Origin: Chordicoccus furentiruminis
Lineage (GTDB): Bacteria > Bacillota > Clostridia > Lachnospirales > Lachnospiraceae
Direction of reading: 5' to 3'
NCBI RefSeq assembly: GCF_019355395.1
Contig: NZ_CP048829.1
Span: 2,831,001-2,895,000 of the forward strand
DNA length: 64,000 bases
Position 1 is the stretch's first letter. Each line of letters opens with the position of its first letter. The notes beneath the pieces were generated by a model. That model was given only the letters and a program-made list of their open reading frames with translations. It searched no databases and had not been told where the DNA came from. Of the stretch, positions 45,977-52,114 are shown in pieces. The position numbers and the translations under genes were made by a program.

Positions 45977-46933
45977 ATGGATAAAGAACTCGCTATCAGG
46001 CTGCTCGGAAAGATGATGCTGGTGCGTAAGTTTGAGGAAAACGTACAGTACTATTTTTCACTGGGCATGATTCACGGCACCACCCATCTCGGGATCGGCG
46101 AGGAAGCGACGGACGCGGGCACCTGTCTCGCGCTGACAGCCGCTGACGATATGTTCGCCACGCACAGAGGACACGGGGCGGCGATCTGCAAGGGAATCGA
46201 TATCCGGCGCATGATGGCCGAGATCTTCGGGAAATCCACCGGGGTCTGCAAGGGCCGTGGCGGTTCGATGCACATTGCGGACAAGGACGCCGGTGTGCTC
46301 GGCGCAAACGGAATCGTCGGGCCCTCAATGGCGCTGGCCTGCGGGGCGGCTTTTGCGCATAAGAGACGGGGCGAAGAGGCGGTAGCGGCGGCGTTCTTCG
46401 GCGACGGCGCGACCAATGAGGGCATTTTTCACGAATCGATGAATCTGGCGTCCGTCTGGGGACTGCCGGTTCTCTTCGTGTGCATCAACAATCTGTACGG
46501 AATGAGCACCCATATTTCAAGGGTGATGAAGGATACCAATCTGGCAGACCGTGCAATTCCGTACGCGATGAAGGCGTGGACGGTGGACGGGAACGATGCG
46601 GAGGCGGTCTGCGATACGGTGACGAAGGCACGTGCATACGCGCTCTCAAGGAAGGAGCCTGTCCTGATCGTGGAGAATACCTACCGTATTTCAGGACACA
46701 GCAAGTCGGACGGCAACCTTTACCGGACAAAGGAAGAGATCAATTACTGGAAACAGCTGGATCCGATCCGGCTGCATGAGAAGAAAATGCTGGAACGCGG
46801 ACTGGCCACACAGAAGGAGATCGAAGAGCTGGAGCGGCAGGCAGCCGGGCTCGTTGAGGATGCGGTCAATTTCGCGATCGAAAGTCCGTATCCGAAAGTG
46901 GAGGATCTGTACGAAGATGTCTACGCAGAATGA
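45977..46933 (+). CDS. 2-oxoacid (pyruvate or acetoin) dehydrogenase E1 alpha
   Basis: The 318-residue subunit binds thiamine diphosphate: [15 protein letters not shown] and INNLYG form the cofactor motif near residue 145. [10 protein letters not shown] and GRGGSMH are typical of the PdhA/AcoA group. Sequence alone does not separate pyruvate from acetoin dehydrogenase. It starts five bases after dxr, probably read from the same transcript, and overlaps E1 beta by 17 bases. Confidence 0.85.
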
Positions 46934-47900
46934 AATCACATACGCTCAGGCGATCCGGGATGCGATGTGCGAGGAACTGCGGCGGGATGAAAACGTCTTC
47001 CTGATGGGAGAGGACATCGGCGTGTACCGCGGCGCGTTCGGTGTGACACAGGATATGTATCAGAAGTTTCCGGACCGGGTGATTGACACACCGATTTCGG
47101 AGGCAGGGTTTGTGGGCTGCGCCATCGGAGCCGCACTGGAAGGCATGCGTCCGATCGTGGAGATCATGTTCTCGGACTTCCTGAGCGTCTGCTGGGATAT
47201 GATCCTCAATCAGGCCCCGAAGATGCACTTTATGTTCGGAGGAAAGGTTTCGGTGCCGCTCGTGATCCGGACGGCGGCCGGCTGCGGAACCGGCGCAGCC
47301 GCCCAGCATTCTCAATCTCTGGAGGCGATGCTCTGTCACATTCCGGGACTCAAGGTGATCGCGCCCTCAACGCCGTACGACGCGAAGGGGCTCCTGAAGT
47401 CGGCGGTCCGTGACAACAATCCGGTCATTTTCCTTGAGCAGAAACTGCTTTACCGCACGAGAGGCGTTGTTCCGGAGAAAGAGTACACAATTCCGATCGG
47501 GAAGGCCGACGTCAAGCGGACCGGAACGGATGTCACCATCGTCACGTACGGACGCATGGTGACGCTCTGCCTTTCGGCGGCGGAGACGCTGGCGAAGGAG
47601 GGCATTTCCGCGGAAGTGATCGACCTCCGGACACTGCTTCCGATGGACAAGCCCGCGGTGATCGAATCGGTGAGGAAAACAAAGCACCTCCTGATCGTCC
47701 ATGAAGCGGTGAAGACGGGCGGTCTGGGCGGAGAGATCGCGGCCAGTGTCGCGGAGTCGGATGCATTCTACTATCTGGACGCACCGATCCGAAGGCTGGC
47801 GGCGGCGGATACGCCGGTGCCATTCTCTCCGGTTCTGGAGAAGGGCGCGCTGCCGGACGAAGAGAAGATCTGCGAGGCGGTGCGTGAGGAAGTCGGGTGA
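46917..47900 (+). CDS. 2-oxoacid (pyruvate or acetoin) dehydrogenase E1 beta
   Basis: The 327-residue transketolase-like subunit completes the E1 tetramer. Its signatures are [26 protein letters not shown], and, in the C-terminal domain, DLRTLLPMD and [12 protein letters not shown]. The ATG at 46917 has a GGAGG-containing site; the frame that opens at 46776 is a shadow of E1 alpha. The E2 gene starts four bases after its stop. Confidence 0.9.
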
Positions 47901-47904
47901 AGCG

Positions 47905-48894
47905 ATGACGTTTGTAAAGGCGACCCCCTATGCGCGGAAGACGGCGAAACAGTATCATATCGATCTTTCGGCCGTGACGCCGACCGGGCCGGACGGCGCG
48001 GTAAAGGCGAGGGACGTGCTTCGCGCGAGAGAGGGAAGACAGAGGATCCGCGAGGTGTTTGCGACGCCGCTGGCACGCAGAATCGCGGATTCGATGCATA
48101 TCGATCTGGAAGGAATCCGCGGAACCGGCATCGGCGGCAGAATCGGAAAGGATGACGTTCTGCACGCAGCGGGGAAGGCGGATTATGTTCTGCAGCCCGG
48201 AGAACTCAGGGAGAGCATGAGCAGCATGCGCAGGGTGATCGCGGCAAGTATGAGCGAGGCCGCCGCGATTCCGACTGTGACGGTGACGACCAAGGTGGAT
48301 GTCACGCGGCTTCAGGAGATGAGGCTTCATCATAACGGGAAGAGTAAGATTCACTACACGGTCAACGATCTCGTACTGATGGCCGCGGCGAAGGCGCTTC
48401 TCAAAAACAAACGGCTTCTGTGCTCTTACGCGGGCGACCGTATCATTTACAAGAACGACATCAACATCGGCATTGCCGTGTCTCTTGATGAAGGAATCCT
48501 TGTTCCGGTTCTTAAGGAGGCGGACACGCTGACTCCGGAGGAGCTCGCGGAGAAGGCGCATGATCTTATCCGAAGAGCCAGAGAGAAAAGTGTGACGCCG
48601 GATGAATGCAGCCATTCGACCTTCACGGTCACGAATATGGGGATGTACGGTGTGGAGGCGTTTACGCCGATGCTTCATCTGCCTGAAGCCGCGGTTCTCG
48701 GGGTCTGCTCGATCTATGACGGGTGCGCGGTGAAGGACGGTGCCGTCGAGGTCCGGAAGCTCATGCACATCTGCACGACATTTGATCACCGGCTTCTGGA
48801 TGGAGCGCAGGCCGCCGTGTTCAACCTGGCTGTCCGTGAGTTTCTTGAGCATCCGGAAAGCCTGATCGGCGGAACGGAAGCGGCGGAAGAATGA
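47905..48894 (+). CDS. Dihydrolipoyl acyltransferase E2 without lipoyl domain
   Basis: The 329-residue protein has two peripheral-subunit-binding domains in tandem (about residues 6-45 and 53-90: TPYARKTAKQYHIDL and TPLARRIADSMHIDL) and then the E2 catalytic core, with the active-site DHRLLDG near residue 300. A normal E2 starts with one or more lipoyl domains of about 80 residues; here none exists, and the E1 beta stop four bases upstream leaves no room for one. Acyl groups must therefore be carried by a lipoyl domain on another subunit, presumably the E3-like protein encoded next. The core would still form the 24- or 60-subunit scaffold. Confidence 0.85.
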   Translation: MTFVKATPYARKTAKQYHIDLSAVTPTGPDGAVKARDVLRAREGRQRIREVFATPLARRIADSMHIDLEGIRGTGIGGRIGKDDVLHAAGKADYVLQPGELRESMSSMRRVIAASMSEAAAIPTVTVTTKVDVTRLQEMRLHHNGKSKIHYTVNDLVLMAAAKALLKNKRLLCSYAGDRIIYKNDINIGIAVSLDEGILVPVLKEADTLTPEELAEKAHDLIRRAREKSVTPDECSHSTFTVTNMGMYGVEAFTPMLHLPEAAVLGVCSIYDGCAVKDGAVEVRKLMHICTTFDHRLLDGAQAAVFNLAVREFLEHPESLIGGTEAAEE

Positions 48895-48926: not shown

Positions 48927-48956
48927 CGGGCGCTCTTCGGGGCGCCCGTTTTTTTT
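48927..48956 (+). terminator. Strong terminator between E2 and the E3-like gene
   Basis: CGGGCGC (48927-48933) pairs with GCGCCCG (48942-48948), followed by eight T residues. It would reduce expression of the E3-like gene relative to E1-E2 unless bypassed; no separate promoter is obvious in the short gap. Confidence 0.85.
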
Positions 48957-48978: not shown

Positions 48979-50682
48979 ATGGCAAAAGAAGTGTTTATGC
49001 CGAAGGCCGGCATGGATATGCAGGAAGGCACAATCGTCCGCTGGCTTGCGGAAACAGGCGATACGGTGAAACAAGGCGATGCACTGCTGGAGATCGAGAC
49101 GGACAAGGTCACGATGGAGGTCGAATCGCCTGCGGACGGCACGCTTCTCGTGAAATATTTTGATGACGGCGCGGTCGTTCCGGTCGTGACCGTCATCGGG
49201 TATGTTGGCGAGAAGGGCGAGAAGGTGCCGGATCATCCGACGATGGCCGGAGGGAGCGTCCGCGAGGAGGAGGAGAGGATGCTCGGCGCGGATGAGCGCC
49301 GCTCGCAGGAGCGGACGTACGAATACCGCGTGGCCGTCATCGGGGGCGGTCCGGCCGGCTGTGTCGCCGCGCTGAAAGCGGCCCGGATGGGAGCAAAGAC
49401 CGTGCTGTTCGAACGCGGACATCTGGGAGGAACCAGTACAGGAGAGGGATCGGTCCCGATGACGGCTTATAACCGGACCGCCGCCGTTCTGGATGCGGCG
49501 GAAGCGGAAGCCGGACGCGGTATCCGATCGTCCGGCTTTTCCTTTGACCTTGCGGAGCTGAAGGAATGGAAGGATCGGACGGTCGCGTCAATCCGGAGGG
49601 AGACGGAAGAGAAGCTGAAAAAAGAAGGCGTGGAGATCGTAAGAGACATGGCCGCGCTGATCGGGCGCCACCATATCCGGACGGGTCAGAAGACCTACCG
49701 AGCGGAGAACATCATTCTGTGCTGCGGATCGCATGCGGTCCGCCTTGATGTGCCGGGGGCGGATCTTGAGGGAATCGTCACGAGCGAGGCGATGTTCGAA
49801 CTTACGGAAGTGCCGGCCAGCCTGGTTATCGTCGGAGGCGGCGTCATCGGGTGCGAGATGGCTTCCGTTTGGAGCCGTTTCGGATCCCGCGTGACGCTGG
49901 TCGAGCGTCAGCCGTCCATTCTTCCTACCTTTGACGGGGAAATTGCGTCTGCGGTTTCGAACGCGTTCACTGCCCGTGGAATCCGGGTGCTGACCGGGAG
50001 ACAGGTGGCGTCTTTCGAGGGAGAAAACGGTCATCCGATGCTCGTGCTCAGGGACGGAGAGGAGCTGTCCGCCGAACGGATCCTGCTGGCAGCGGGGCGG
50101 AAGCCAGAGCTCGGCGCGCTGGGTTCCCTTGCCGGCCAGCTCGATTTTGAGAGAGGAAAGCTGATGGTCGATTCCTGCTGCCGCACGAACCTCGACAGTA
50201 TTTTCGCCTGCGGCGATATGACGAACCAGAGCATACTCGCACACTCCGCGATGAAGATGGGCGAGGCGGCCGCCCAGACCGCGTGCGGATCACCGAAGGA
50301 GGTTCACCTGAACCGTGTGCCTCTCAATCTTTACGCGATCCCGGAAGCGGCCGGCATCGGGCTCACTGAAGCGCAGGCGCGGAAACGGGGGGATATCCTG
50401 GTCGGCCGGTGCCCGTTTTCTCTTAACAGCCGCGCCGTTGCAGGCGGACAGACAGAAGGGTTTGTGAAGGTCATCGCTGACCGTGCGTACGGGGAGATCC
50501 TCGGCGTGCATATCGTAGGAGGTCTTGCGACCGAGATGATCGCCGAGGCCAAGACGCTGATGGATATGGAGATCACGGTTTATGAAGTGAAGGATATCGT
50601 GCATGCGCATCCGACATGGAATGAGGCGATTCAGGCGGCATGCGCCGACGCGATCGGAGACAGGCTGGTTCTGACGGTCTGA
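48979..50682 (+). CDS. Lipoyl-domain E3-like flavoprotein lacking redox cysteines
   Basis: The 567-residue protein joins a lipoyl domain (residues 1-80, lipoylation lysine K43 in ETDKVTM) to a dihydrolipoyl dehydrogenase-like flavoprotein (FAD loop GGGPAGCVAA near 122, NAD loop VGGGVIGCEMAS, GDMTNQ, and C-terminal HAHPTWNEA with the His-Glu pair). In true E3 the FAD loop is followed by a CxxxxC disulfide. Here LGGTSTGEGS places serines at 153 (codon AGT, 49435) and 158 (codon TCG, 49450), so the normal disulfide relay cannot work. It may serve mainly as lipoyl carrier for the lipoyl-less E2, with oxidation by another E3, or use a different mechanism. GGAGG sets the ATG. Confidence 0.85.
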   Translation: MAKEVFMPKAGMDMQEGTIVRWLAETGDTVKQGDALLEIETDKVTMEVESPADGTLLVKYFDDGAVVPVVTVIGYVGEKGEKVPDHPTMAGGSVREEEERMLGADERRSQERTYEYRVAVIGGGPAGCVAALKAARMGAKTVLFERGHLGGTSTGEGSVPMTAYNRTAAVLDAAEAEAGRGIRSSGFSFDLAELKEWKDRTVASIRRETEEKLKKEGVEIVRDMAALIGRHHIRTGQKTYRAENIILCCGSHAVRLDVPGADLEGIVTSEAMFELTEVPASLVIVGGGVIGCEMASVWSRFGSRVTLVERQPSILPTFDGEIASAVSNAFTARGIRVLTGRQVASFEGENGHPMLVLRDGEELSAERILLAAGRKPELGALGSLAGQLDFERGKLMVDSCCRTNLDSIFACGDMTNQSILAHSAMKMGEAAAQTACGSPKEVHLNRVPLNLYAIPEAAGIGLTEAQARKRGDILVGRCPFSLNSRAVAGGQTEGFVKVIADRAYGEILGVHIVGGLATEMIAEAKTLMDMEITVYEVKDIVHAHPTWNEAIQAACADAIGDRLVLTV

Positions 50683-50721: not shown

Positions 50722-51288
50722 TCACGGATGAGTCCGGAGCCATTCGGAAAATGCGTCCGCCAGCCGGAGGTGGCCGGCTGCATTTAAATGAAGGCCGTCG
50801 GCAAGAAAGCCGCGCAGCGCATCGAAAGTCAGGGATTCAAAGACAGCCGCGAAATCAACGCACTCTTTCTGTGAGCGGATCCACTCGTTAAGAGAGAGCC
50901 GGAGGAGCTGCGCGTCGTCAAGGCAGACCGCTTTCCTGAAAGCGGCAGGAGCCATGGAAGGAAGATAGGGAGGAATTGTGGCGAGAAGCGTGCGGATATC
51001 GTACGCTTCCGCTTCACGGACGAGAAACAGAAGGAAACGGCGGGTCTCGGCCGGATCGCGGCGAAGGAAAAAATCGTTGGATCCGGCAAGGAGAAGAACG
51101 GCATCGGGACGCTCTGCCAGTACCTGACGGTCGAAACGGCTCAGAAGACCGCGCGTCGTGTCTCCGTTCCGCCCCCGGTTAATCACCCGGAAGCCGCAGC
51201 GGCCTCCGAGTTTTGCCGTCCAGCACTCAGAGCGCCGTACCAGAGGCCCGAAGACCAGACTGTCTCCTATGCAGATCATTGTTTTCAT
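50722..51288 (-). CDS. SGNH/GDSL hydrolase
   Basis: The 188-residue cytoplasmic esterase-like protein has all SGNH blocks: GDSLVFG (nucleophile serine near residue 8), a glycine-containing NRGRNGDT, GSNDFF, and DGLHLNAAGH with the Asp-His pair. It resembles small acyl-hydrolases such as TesA-like enzymes; substrate unknown. The ATG at 51288 lies inside the end of lplA, giving a 62-base overlap, and a start five codons earlier is also open. It is transcribed with lplA, convergent with the E3-like gene. Confidence 0.75.
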   Translation of the reverse strand: MKTMICIGDSLVFGPLVRRSECWTAKLGGRCGFRVINRGRNGDTTRGLLSRFDRQVLAERPDAVLLLAGSNDFFLRRDPAETRRFLLFLVREAEAYDIRTLLATIPPYLPSMAPAAFRKAVCLDDAQLLRLSLNEWIRSQKECVDFAAVFESLTFDALRGFLADGLHLNAAGHLRLADAFSEWLRTHP

Positions 51289-52078
51289 CGGATTTCCTGT
51301 CAAAAATGCCGTCGAGCATGCTCTTCGGCCGGATGCATTTCACCGGAGGAACGGTTTTGACCAGACTGTCGAGATCACCGGCGGCATCGTTCAGGGGAAG
51401 CACCCGCTGCATCTGGCTCAGAATGCCGGCTTCAAGAAGATTCATGAACTGGGAGGTGCTCACGCCGGGAAAATAGACGGAAAGAGGCACCACGCGGCTG
51501 TGCACCGAGCAGATTCCGTGACGGGCCATCTTGGACTGGGAAGGAGTCAGCACGCAGTCCATGATGTCAAGATCCACGTTGTAACAGATACAGCCGTGGG
51601 AGAGAATCCGGTTTCCGTCCAGACAGGCCGCCGTACCGCAGACCTTCATACCGTTGATCATGATATCGTTCCGGTCGTTGAAGGCAGCCGGCAGCCCCAT
51701 GCGCCTGAGCGCAAGGAGAACCGGCCCGGCCAGCTCTCTGAGCGAGAAGCCGCCATCCTCGGGAAGGTCGGTGATCATCGTGTAGTTGATGTTGCCGAGA
51801 TCATGATAGACGGCGCCCCCGCCGGTGGAGCGGCGGACGACCTGAATGCCCTGAGAACTCGCGTAGCGCAGATCGACCTCGTTCTCGGCGATCTGGTTCT
51901 TTCCGATGACGACGGTTCTCTGATTGCGCCACAGCAGAAAGACCGGGTATGATCGGACATTCCTGAGAAGCGCTTCCTCCAGACGGAGGTTCCAGGTCGG
52001 GTCGTAAGAGGGACTGCGGCCGTACAGCACGGTTTGAGCGGAAAAATCAAACGGATTTGTATCAGCTGAAGTATTCAT
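51227..52078 (-). CDS. lplA: Lipoate-protein ligase A, short form
   Basis: The 283-residue protein attaches lipoate to lipoyl domains. Signatures are RRSTGGGAVYHDLGNINYT near residue 75 and the lysine motif NGMKVCGTA near 150. It is shorter than full LplA (about 330 residues), and the C-terminal accessory domain appears reduced, so it may depend on a partner or act as a lipoyl transferase. Placing it beside an oxoacid dehydrogenase operon fits lipoylation of K43 in the E3-like protein. No ribosome binding site precedes the ATG and the promoter ends about seven bases before it, suggesting leaderless translation. Confidence 0.85.
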   Translation of the reverse strand: MNTSADTNPFDFSAQTVLYGRSPSYDPTWNLRLEEALLRNVRSYPVFLLWRNQRTVVIGKNQIAENEVDLRYASSQGIQVVRRSTGGGAVYHDLGNINYTMITDLPEDGGFSLRELAGPVLLALRRMGLPAAFNDRNDIMINGMKVCGTAACLDGNRILSHGCICYNVDLDIMDCVLTPSQSKMARHGICSVHSRVVPLSVYFPGVSTSQFMNLLEAGILSQMQRVLPLNDAAGDLDSLVKTVPPVKCIRPKSMLDGIFDRKSDENNDLHRRQSGLRASGTAL

Positions 52079-52085
52079 GAGAATC

Positions 52086-52114
52086 AGTATAGCATGCTTT
52101 ATTATGCGTGACAA
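52086..52114 (-). promoter_or_regulatory. lplA promoter, close to start codon
   Basis: On the minus strand TTGTCA (52114-52109) and TATACT (52091-52086) are 17 bases apart. Transcription would begin at about 52079, one base before the ATG. Confidence 0.65.

Follow-up and report, generated by a model that had tools for sequence, protein, structure and literature searches.

A lipoyl-bearing E3-like subunit without the redox cysteine pair in the PDH operon of Chordicoccus furentiruminis and four relatives

Introduction

E3 paralogues that lack cysteines and complexes that carry the lipoyl domain on E3 are each already known. In Saccharomyces cerevisiae, the E3 paralogue Irc15p, which has no redox cysteines, is reported to bind FAD and to accept electrons from NADH, but not to react with lipoamide (PMC6296175). 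In the PDH complex of Mycoplasma hyopneumoniae, the lipoyl domain is located on E3 (PdhD) (PMC7873978). The soluble pyridine nucleotide transhydrogenase SthA is described as having a conserved CXXXXT motif and a Tyr in place of the catalytic His (PMC9460512).

Here, we analyzed an E3-like gene of Chordicoccus furentiruminis (Lachnospiraceae) located in a stretch of 64,000 nucleotides (assembly GCF_019355395.1, contig NZ_CP048829.1, positions 2,831,001 to 2,895,000), which is referred to as the window and whose first letter is position 1. An initial annotation, made from the sequence of the window, had claimed that serines replace both redox cysteines in an otherwise well-conserved, lipoyl-bearing E3, and proposed selection for a changed role, such as lipoyl carriage or a non-disulfide chemistry, rather than decay.

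Materials and methods

The sample of close relatives comprised 42 genomes of the genus, with the window genome designated G000. The E3 gene of G064 is cut before the redox motif and was kept out of all motif counts, whereas that of G034, which starts at query residue 118, was included in the motif counts and the E3 trees and omitted from the E1+E2 tree and from the rate and codon tables. The outgroup G730 was left out of the E1+E2 tree and the rate table. G015, whose CxxxxC E3 has ~37% identity to the window E3 and no lipoyl part in the alignment, was not counted as a copy, and the more distant E3s of the genus members G002, G010, G022, G027 and G061 were left out of the counts. The presence of a lipoyl domain on E2 was assessed by Pfam for the window E2 and by reading the sequences for the other nine same-genus and three outgroup E2s.

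Results and discussion

Organization of the PDH operon and the E3-like subunit

In the window, the genes for E1 alpha, E1 beta, E2 and a lipoyl-bearing E3 follow one another in this order, and the last of them is convergent with a lipoate-protein ligase gene:

45977..46933, plus strand: E1 alpha subunit (ORF, Pfam, NCBIfam)
46917..47900, plus strand: E1 beta subunit (ORF, Pfam, NCBIfam; start codon chosen by eye)
47905..48894, plus strand: E2 acyltransferase that lacks a lipoyl domain and has two peripheral-subunit-binding domains (Pfam E3_binding in two stretches, 2-oxoacid_dh; start chosen by eye)
48927..48956, plus strand: terminator-like hairpin in the E2-E3 gap (9 pairs, 8 of them G-C; TTCG loop; T8 run)
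48979..50682, plus strand: E3-like subunit without redox cysteines, with lipoyl and FAD/NAD disulfide-oxidoreductase domains (ORF, Pfam, NCBIfam, alignment, AlphaFold2, Foldseek)
48988..49185, plus strand: lipoyl domain, residues 4-69, with the lipoyl-lysine Lys43 in ETDKV (Pfam PF00364)
49246..49311, plus strand: low-confidence stretch, residues 90-111 (pLDDT <50)
51227..52114, minus strand: LplA-like lipoate-protein ligase (Pfam PF21948, 8e-57)

The E3-like ORF begins with an ATG at 48979, ends with a stop codon at 50682 and encodes 567 amino acids, in which Pfam also recognized Pyr_redox_2 (residues 116-428) and the dimerisation domain (residues 448-554). Its AlphaFold2 model has a mean pLDDT of 86.6, and residues 90-111 are, judging from this model, probably a flexible linker. 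Foldseek placed the E3 2eq6 as the top PDB match of the model (TMt 0.93), and all 50 of the matches listed are E3s. The protein scored 391.5 bits against the NCBIfam E3 model TIGR01350, below the cut-off of 408.8; as this cut-off is also missed by two CxxxxC-containing E3s of the genus (399.1 bits in G014 and 370.4 in G015), the score alone cannot separate the two kinds. When compared with what defines a catalytic E3, the window protein has the predicted fold, the FAD and NAD motifs, the His-Glu pair and the dimerisation domain, and lacks the redox CxxxxC.

No lipoyl domain was detected in the window E2 or in any of the nine other same-genus E2s retrieved (9/9), whether or not the E3 of the same organism keeps its cysteines; the outgroup E2s L055, L057 and L076 do carry one. 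PF00364 had four matches in the window genome, namely this E3, GcvH (ESVKA) and two proteins with biotinyl sites (ESMKM and EAMKM). Thus, no PDH-type lipoyl domain other than that of the window E3 was found in the genome, and the arrangement is that of a PDH complex whose lipoyl domain lies on E3 and not on E2. D42 and K43 of this domain are invariant in 21 sequences. The two peripheral-subunit-binding domains of the window E2 are arranged in tandem at 47920-48162, and the layout of E2 is the same with or without the E3 cysteines.

As a class, terminator-like sites are not commoner in the region than in shuffles (4 vs 3.7 expected). In none of nine same-genus relatives do the 110 bases preceding E3 contain a hairpin of at least six perfect pairs, and two of three outgroup E2-E3 gaps have one, both without a T run. 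The hairpin might lower E3 expression in the window genome alone. The LplA-like ligase reached 217 bits against TIGR00545, under the cut-off of 280. It is one of two lipoate ligases in the window genome, the first (51227-52114, minus strand) lying beside the PDH genes and the second (G000:C1, ~2212.0-2213.0 kb) in the glycine-cleavage operon.

Loss of the redox cysteines in the window E3 and its relatives

The following residues of the window E3 were located by alignment:

49435..49437, plus strand: Ser153 (AGT), at the position of the first redox Cys
49450..49452, plus strand: Ser158 (TCG), at the position of the second redox Cys
49462..49464, plus strand: Thr162, in place of the Lys found in 14 other rows compared
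50608..50625, plus strand: His544 to Glu549, the retained His-Glu pair (H and E in 5/5 lost, 6/6 kept and 4/4 outgroup rows)

The redox motif of the window E3 reads GGTSTGEGSVPMT, with glycines at 150-151 and serines at 153 and 158, and both the ORF and the alignment bear out the two serine codons first noted. In phmmer comparisons with the solved E3s 2eq6 and 1ebd, the segment lggtstgegsvp falls on the GGxCxNxGCIP motif, and hence the alignment puts no alternative cysteine pair next to the flavin; such a pair would, according to the initial annotation, have been fatal to its own reading. The Lys after the second cysteine, which is present in all other rows compared, is replaced by Thr162, a change absent from that annotation.

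An E3 copy at at least 58% identity was found in 12 of the 42 genomes, with the lipoyl part lying within the contig in 10 of the 12, and the motif was readable in 11, the copy of G064 being cut off before it. Six of these 11 keep both cysteines (G004, G016, G019, G028, G034 and G036), and five have lost one or both: the window E3 (S/S), G006 (N/G), G065 (G/S), G012 (C/S) and G014 (G/S). The reading frame of E3 is intact in all five. More distant E3s were surveyed among the best-scoring loci of each search, a subset of all E3s from which partial rows were left out and which was deduplicated on columns 300-400; among the loci fetched, both cysteines are present in 50 of 50 distinct lipoyl-fused E3s with less than 55% identity to the window E3 and in 73 of 73 matches without a lipoyl part, a set into which the incomplete G034 copy falls by its coordinates. 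Tabulating homologues, as the initial annotation had suggested, thus shows that the loss is shared by four further genomes and is not an isolated error among relatives that keep the pair. It is seen in one group of uncultured Lachnospiraceae bacteria. On the evidence of the aligned sequences, the cysteine loss is neither an error nor serine-specific.

Further residues expected of an E3 remain in all five rows (5/5) that lost cysteines. These are Gly122/124/127, Glu145 and Gly412-Asp413, which we take to belong to the FAD site, and Gly286/288/291 and Glu309, which we assign to the NAD site, as well as His544, Glu549 and the lipoyl Lys43. The claim that the FAD, NAD, His-Glu and lipoyl features are well kept therefore holds for the five rows, and the Pfam domains agree with it. 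The His-Glu pair of E3 is known for its part in thiol chemistry.

We also looked for cysteines that might have taken over. A shifted pair within the loop was rejected, as the lost rows carry only one or no loop cysteine (none in the window E3 and G014, and one each at 152 in G006, 156 in G065 and 153 in G012). A new conserved pair elsewhere was rejected as well, since no cysteine is present in all five lost rows yet absent from the kept rows. Two further cysteine sites were observed. Residues 248-249 (window 49720-49725) are Cys-Cys in three of five lost and none of six kept rows; Cys249 adjoins Cys248, and the CxxxxC-bearing protein of G015 likewise reads LCCGS there. At the site of Cys380 (window 50116-50118), far from the motif in sequence, Cys is found in all six kept same-genus E3s and in none of the five lost ones.

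Evolution of the lost clade

In the phylogenetic tree built from both E1 subunits together with E2 (13 rows), the five lost species form one clade (97/97), which requires one change, and its sister is G016, in which the pair is kept. The tree of E3 with the loop removed (15 rows) does not place the five lost rows together (two changes), although their grouping is not rejected (p-AU 0.309). Judging from these sequences, the simplest history is a single loss, probably affecting the second cysteine first and followed by drift of the site, with the C/S state surviving in G012.

Branch lengths of the lost clade were compared with those of the kept clade on a fixed tree (five vs four tips). The lost/kept ratio is 5.31 for the loop and 1.66 for E3 without the loop. 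Along the protein, it is 2.98 for residues 113-147, 1.87 when the remainder of the first FAD segment is taken together with these, 1.71 for the NAD segment, 1.67 for the lipoyl domain, 1.40 for the interface and 1.33 for the second FAD segment, and for the partner subunits it is 1.26 (E1 beta), 1.14 (E1 alpha) and 1.05 (E2). The kept and outgroup rows share 160 invariant columns; the lost clade departs from 26 of them, distributed as 15/34 in the first FAD segment, 4/26 in the NAD segment, 3/18 in the second FAD segment, 3/43 in the interface, 1/36 in the lipoyl domain and 0/3 in the linker. Within the loop (residues 148-166), 6 of 11 invariant columns are broken, compared with 20 of 149 elsewhere (p 0.003). 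In the reverse control, 15 of 149 columns are broken, and the first FAD segment again has the largest share (8/27).

The initial annotation had named a non-disulfide chemistry as one role for which the two matched replacements might have been selected. Selection for such a chemistry based on serine was not supported: the relatives have N/G, G/S, C/S and G/S, and the loop evolves fast (5.31, against 1.66 for the remainder of E3), which looks like a site released from constraint after one loss. Identities at the three codon positions are 0.73/0.78/0.44 in the lost and 0.75/0.81/0.44 in the kept clade (10 pairs each), implying that the E3 protein is still under purifying selection in the lost clade. 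The E3 of G016 (L077, 6001-7692), which has both cysteines, is also fast (tip length 0.46 vs 0.42 for the window E3), and the acceleration may therefore predate the cysteine loss.

A second, canonical E3 in the glycine-cleavage operon

The presence of another, canonical E3 in the same genome was one of the checks initially suggested, and such a gene was indeed found in the window genome. It encodes GGTCLNHGCIPTK, scores 460.7 bits against the E3 model (cut-off 408.8) and sits behind gcvT, gcvH, gcvPA, gcvPB and a lipoate ligase gene. An operon with GcvT, GcvP and a CxxxxC E3 also occurs in G012, G014 and G065, where the remaining gene names were read by eye, and its E3s score 478.7, 399.1 and 478.4 bits, respectively. 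Counting genomes with a readable motif, a glycine-cleavage E3 is present in four of five lost and none of six kept ones (Fisher p 0.015); the assemblies of the six in which it was not found are only 71-91% complete, and, as the lost species form one clade, the two traits coincide only once, not five times.

The remaining member of the lost clade, G006 (N/G; 90% complete), shows no GcvT and no GcvP that passes the cut-off, nor does it have a close second E3. Its locus L044 (GGTCTNFGCDAK) encodes a CxxxxC disulfide reductase for which the E3 model is the best match, at 256.7 bits, far below the cut-off of 408.8. G006 neither fits nor clearly breaks the second-E3 pattern. In G064, whose motif could not be read, a second E3 scores 474.7 bits, over the cut-off, with its neighbourhood cut off. 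The second match of G019 was rejected as an E3, as this 359-aa piece fits RclA best (271.8 bits). The second E3s of G000, G012, G014, G065 and G064 group together in the tree (SH-aLRT 93).

A probable lipoyl-carrier role and its alternatives

The window E3 descends from a normal lipoyl-bearing E3 and has lost the disulfide, while the predicted fold, the lipoyl-lysine, the cofactor-site residues and the interface are kept. We consider it reasonably probable that the gene encodes an E3 pseudoenzyme that is kept as a lipoyl carrier, with NADH formation passed to another E3. According to this model, the protein would dock as a dimer on one of the peripheral-subunit-binding domains of E2, and its lipoyl domain, tethered by a flexible linker of ~22 residues, would bring acetyl from E1 to E2. 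The dihydrolipoyl group formed in this way could not be oxidised by its own subunit and would instead be oxidised by the glycine-cleavage E3; elsewhere, E3s oxidise free lipoyl domains and GcvH. The subunit would have to be retained as the carrier of the one PDH-type lipoyl domain identified in the genome, and its redox centre would have been free to drift after a second E3 had become available. The diverse replacements within one clade, without a fixed new motif, favour such a pseudoenzyme. A changed role, such as lipoyl carriage, rather than decay had been suggested from the start. With lipoyl carriage as its most likely form, this agrees with the intact frames (5/5), the selection on codon positions and the second E3. 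As deduced from sequence, the action of the second E3 on the PDH complex, the assembly of this complex and the lipoylation of Lys43 are all putative. The retention of the His-Glu pair in all five rows fits the carrier role least well; the pair may have a packing function where the two subunits of the dimer meet, or some flavin chemistry may persist. The lipoyl ratio (1.67), which exceeds those of E1 and E2, also counts against it, as do the fast E3 of G016 and the large share of the first FAD segment in the reverse control.

The protein could still be a flavoenzyme with redox activity, in the manner of Irc15p or the soluble transhydrogenases. NADH would be its donor or acceptor, and FAD would hand electrons to a partner other than a disulfide (quinone, oxygen, NADP or a small redox protein). 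The FAD and NAD signature residues in 5/5 rows and the intact predicted fold would suit such an enzyme, as would the binding of FAD by the cysteine-free Irc15p and its reduction by NADH (PMC6296175). However, the CXXXXT motif and the Tyr for His reported for the transhydrogenase (PMC9460512) were not found here, the loop of the lost clade converges on no motif, and both the place in the PDH operon and the possession of the only PDH-type lipoyl domain found point to a function within the complex, so that we regard such a redox function as unlikely. It is less likely still that the protein's own dihydrolipoyl arm is oxidised directly by FAD with the help of the His-Glu pair and without a protein disulfide. 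His544 and Glu549 are present in 5/5 lost rows, although their known task is with thiols; on the other hand, reduced Irc15p is reported to be unreactive with lipoamide (PMC6296175), and five rows with four different residue pairs do not resemble a new active site. If true, a 2-oxoacid dehydrogenase complex would here complete its cycle by a route that needs no disulfide.

Alternatively, the whole PDH complex might be in the course of being lost in the clade, beginning with the active site of E3 and without any substitute E3. The faster evolution of E3 in the lost clade is compatible with this, as are the missing Lys162 and the terminator-like hairpin before E3 in the window copy and the lack of a second E3 above the model cut-off in G006. 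Yet the rates of E1 and E2 are barely raised (1.05-1.26), the E3 frames are intact in 5/5 genomes, the codon-position selection is much like that of the kept clade, and only one of 36 invariant lipoyl sites is broken; a complex on its way out is thus improbable. As for a sequencing or assembly error, nothing was found in its favour and its chance is practically negligible, given that the loss is shared, with differing residues, by four further genomes, one of which, JAUNAG01, is from a deposit series other than that of the three RUG records. We take RUG in these record names to stand for rumen genomes.

If the lipoyl-carrier role is right, an E3 has lost its chemistry and yet must stay as the bearer of the swinging arm of its complex, and the PDH complex can hand its last step to the E3 of another pathway. 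The loss would also have been caught in steps, with a sister that has both cysteines, one species that has one and others that have none. Such a protein would separate the parts of E3 needed for structure from those needed for catalysis, and a sharp test of this is possible. Automatic annotation may label proteins of this kind dihydrolipoyl dehydrogenase.

Comparison with known systems

In the open-access literature, with most subscription journals lying outside, we found no report of a cysteine-less E3 that bears the lipoyl domain of its own complex. Irc15p resembles the window E3 in having neither redox cysteine and in the presence of a canonical E3 in the same genome, a likeness that does not imply close kinship; unlike the window E3, it is microtubule-associated, and the part of the report used here describes no lipoyl domain or membership of a 2-oxoacid dehydrogenase complex (PMC6296175). 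SthA is likewise a disulfide-reductase relative with a broken CxxxxC, but it has CXXXXT and Tyr (PMC9460512), whereas the window E3 has S/S and keeps His544. The assignment of the window E3 as an SthA transhydrogenase was rejected (275.4 bits vs the cut-off of 465, motif absent). M. hyopneumoniae shares with the window genome both the PDH lipoyl domain on E3 and two lipoate ligases; no cysteine loss is mentioned for PdhD in the part of that report used here (PMC7873978). With the canonical E3 (TIGR01350; 2eq6 and 1ebd), the window E3 has in common the predicted fold, the motifs, the His-Glu pair, the interface and the place after E1 and E2; the canonical enzyme has a redox disulfide, and the window E3 has none.
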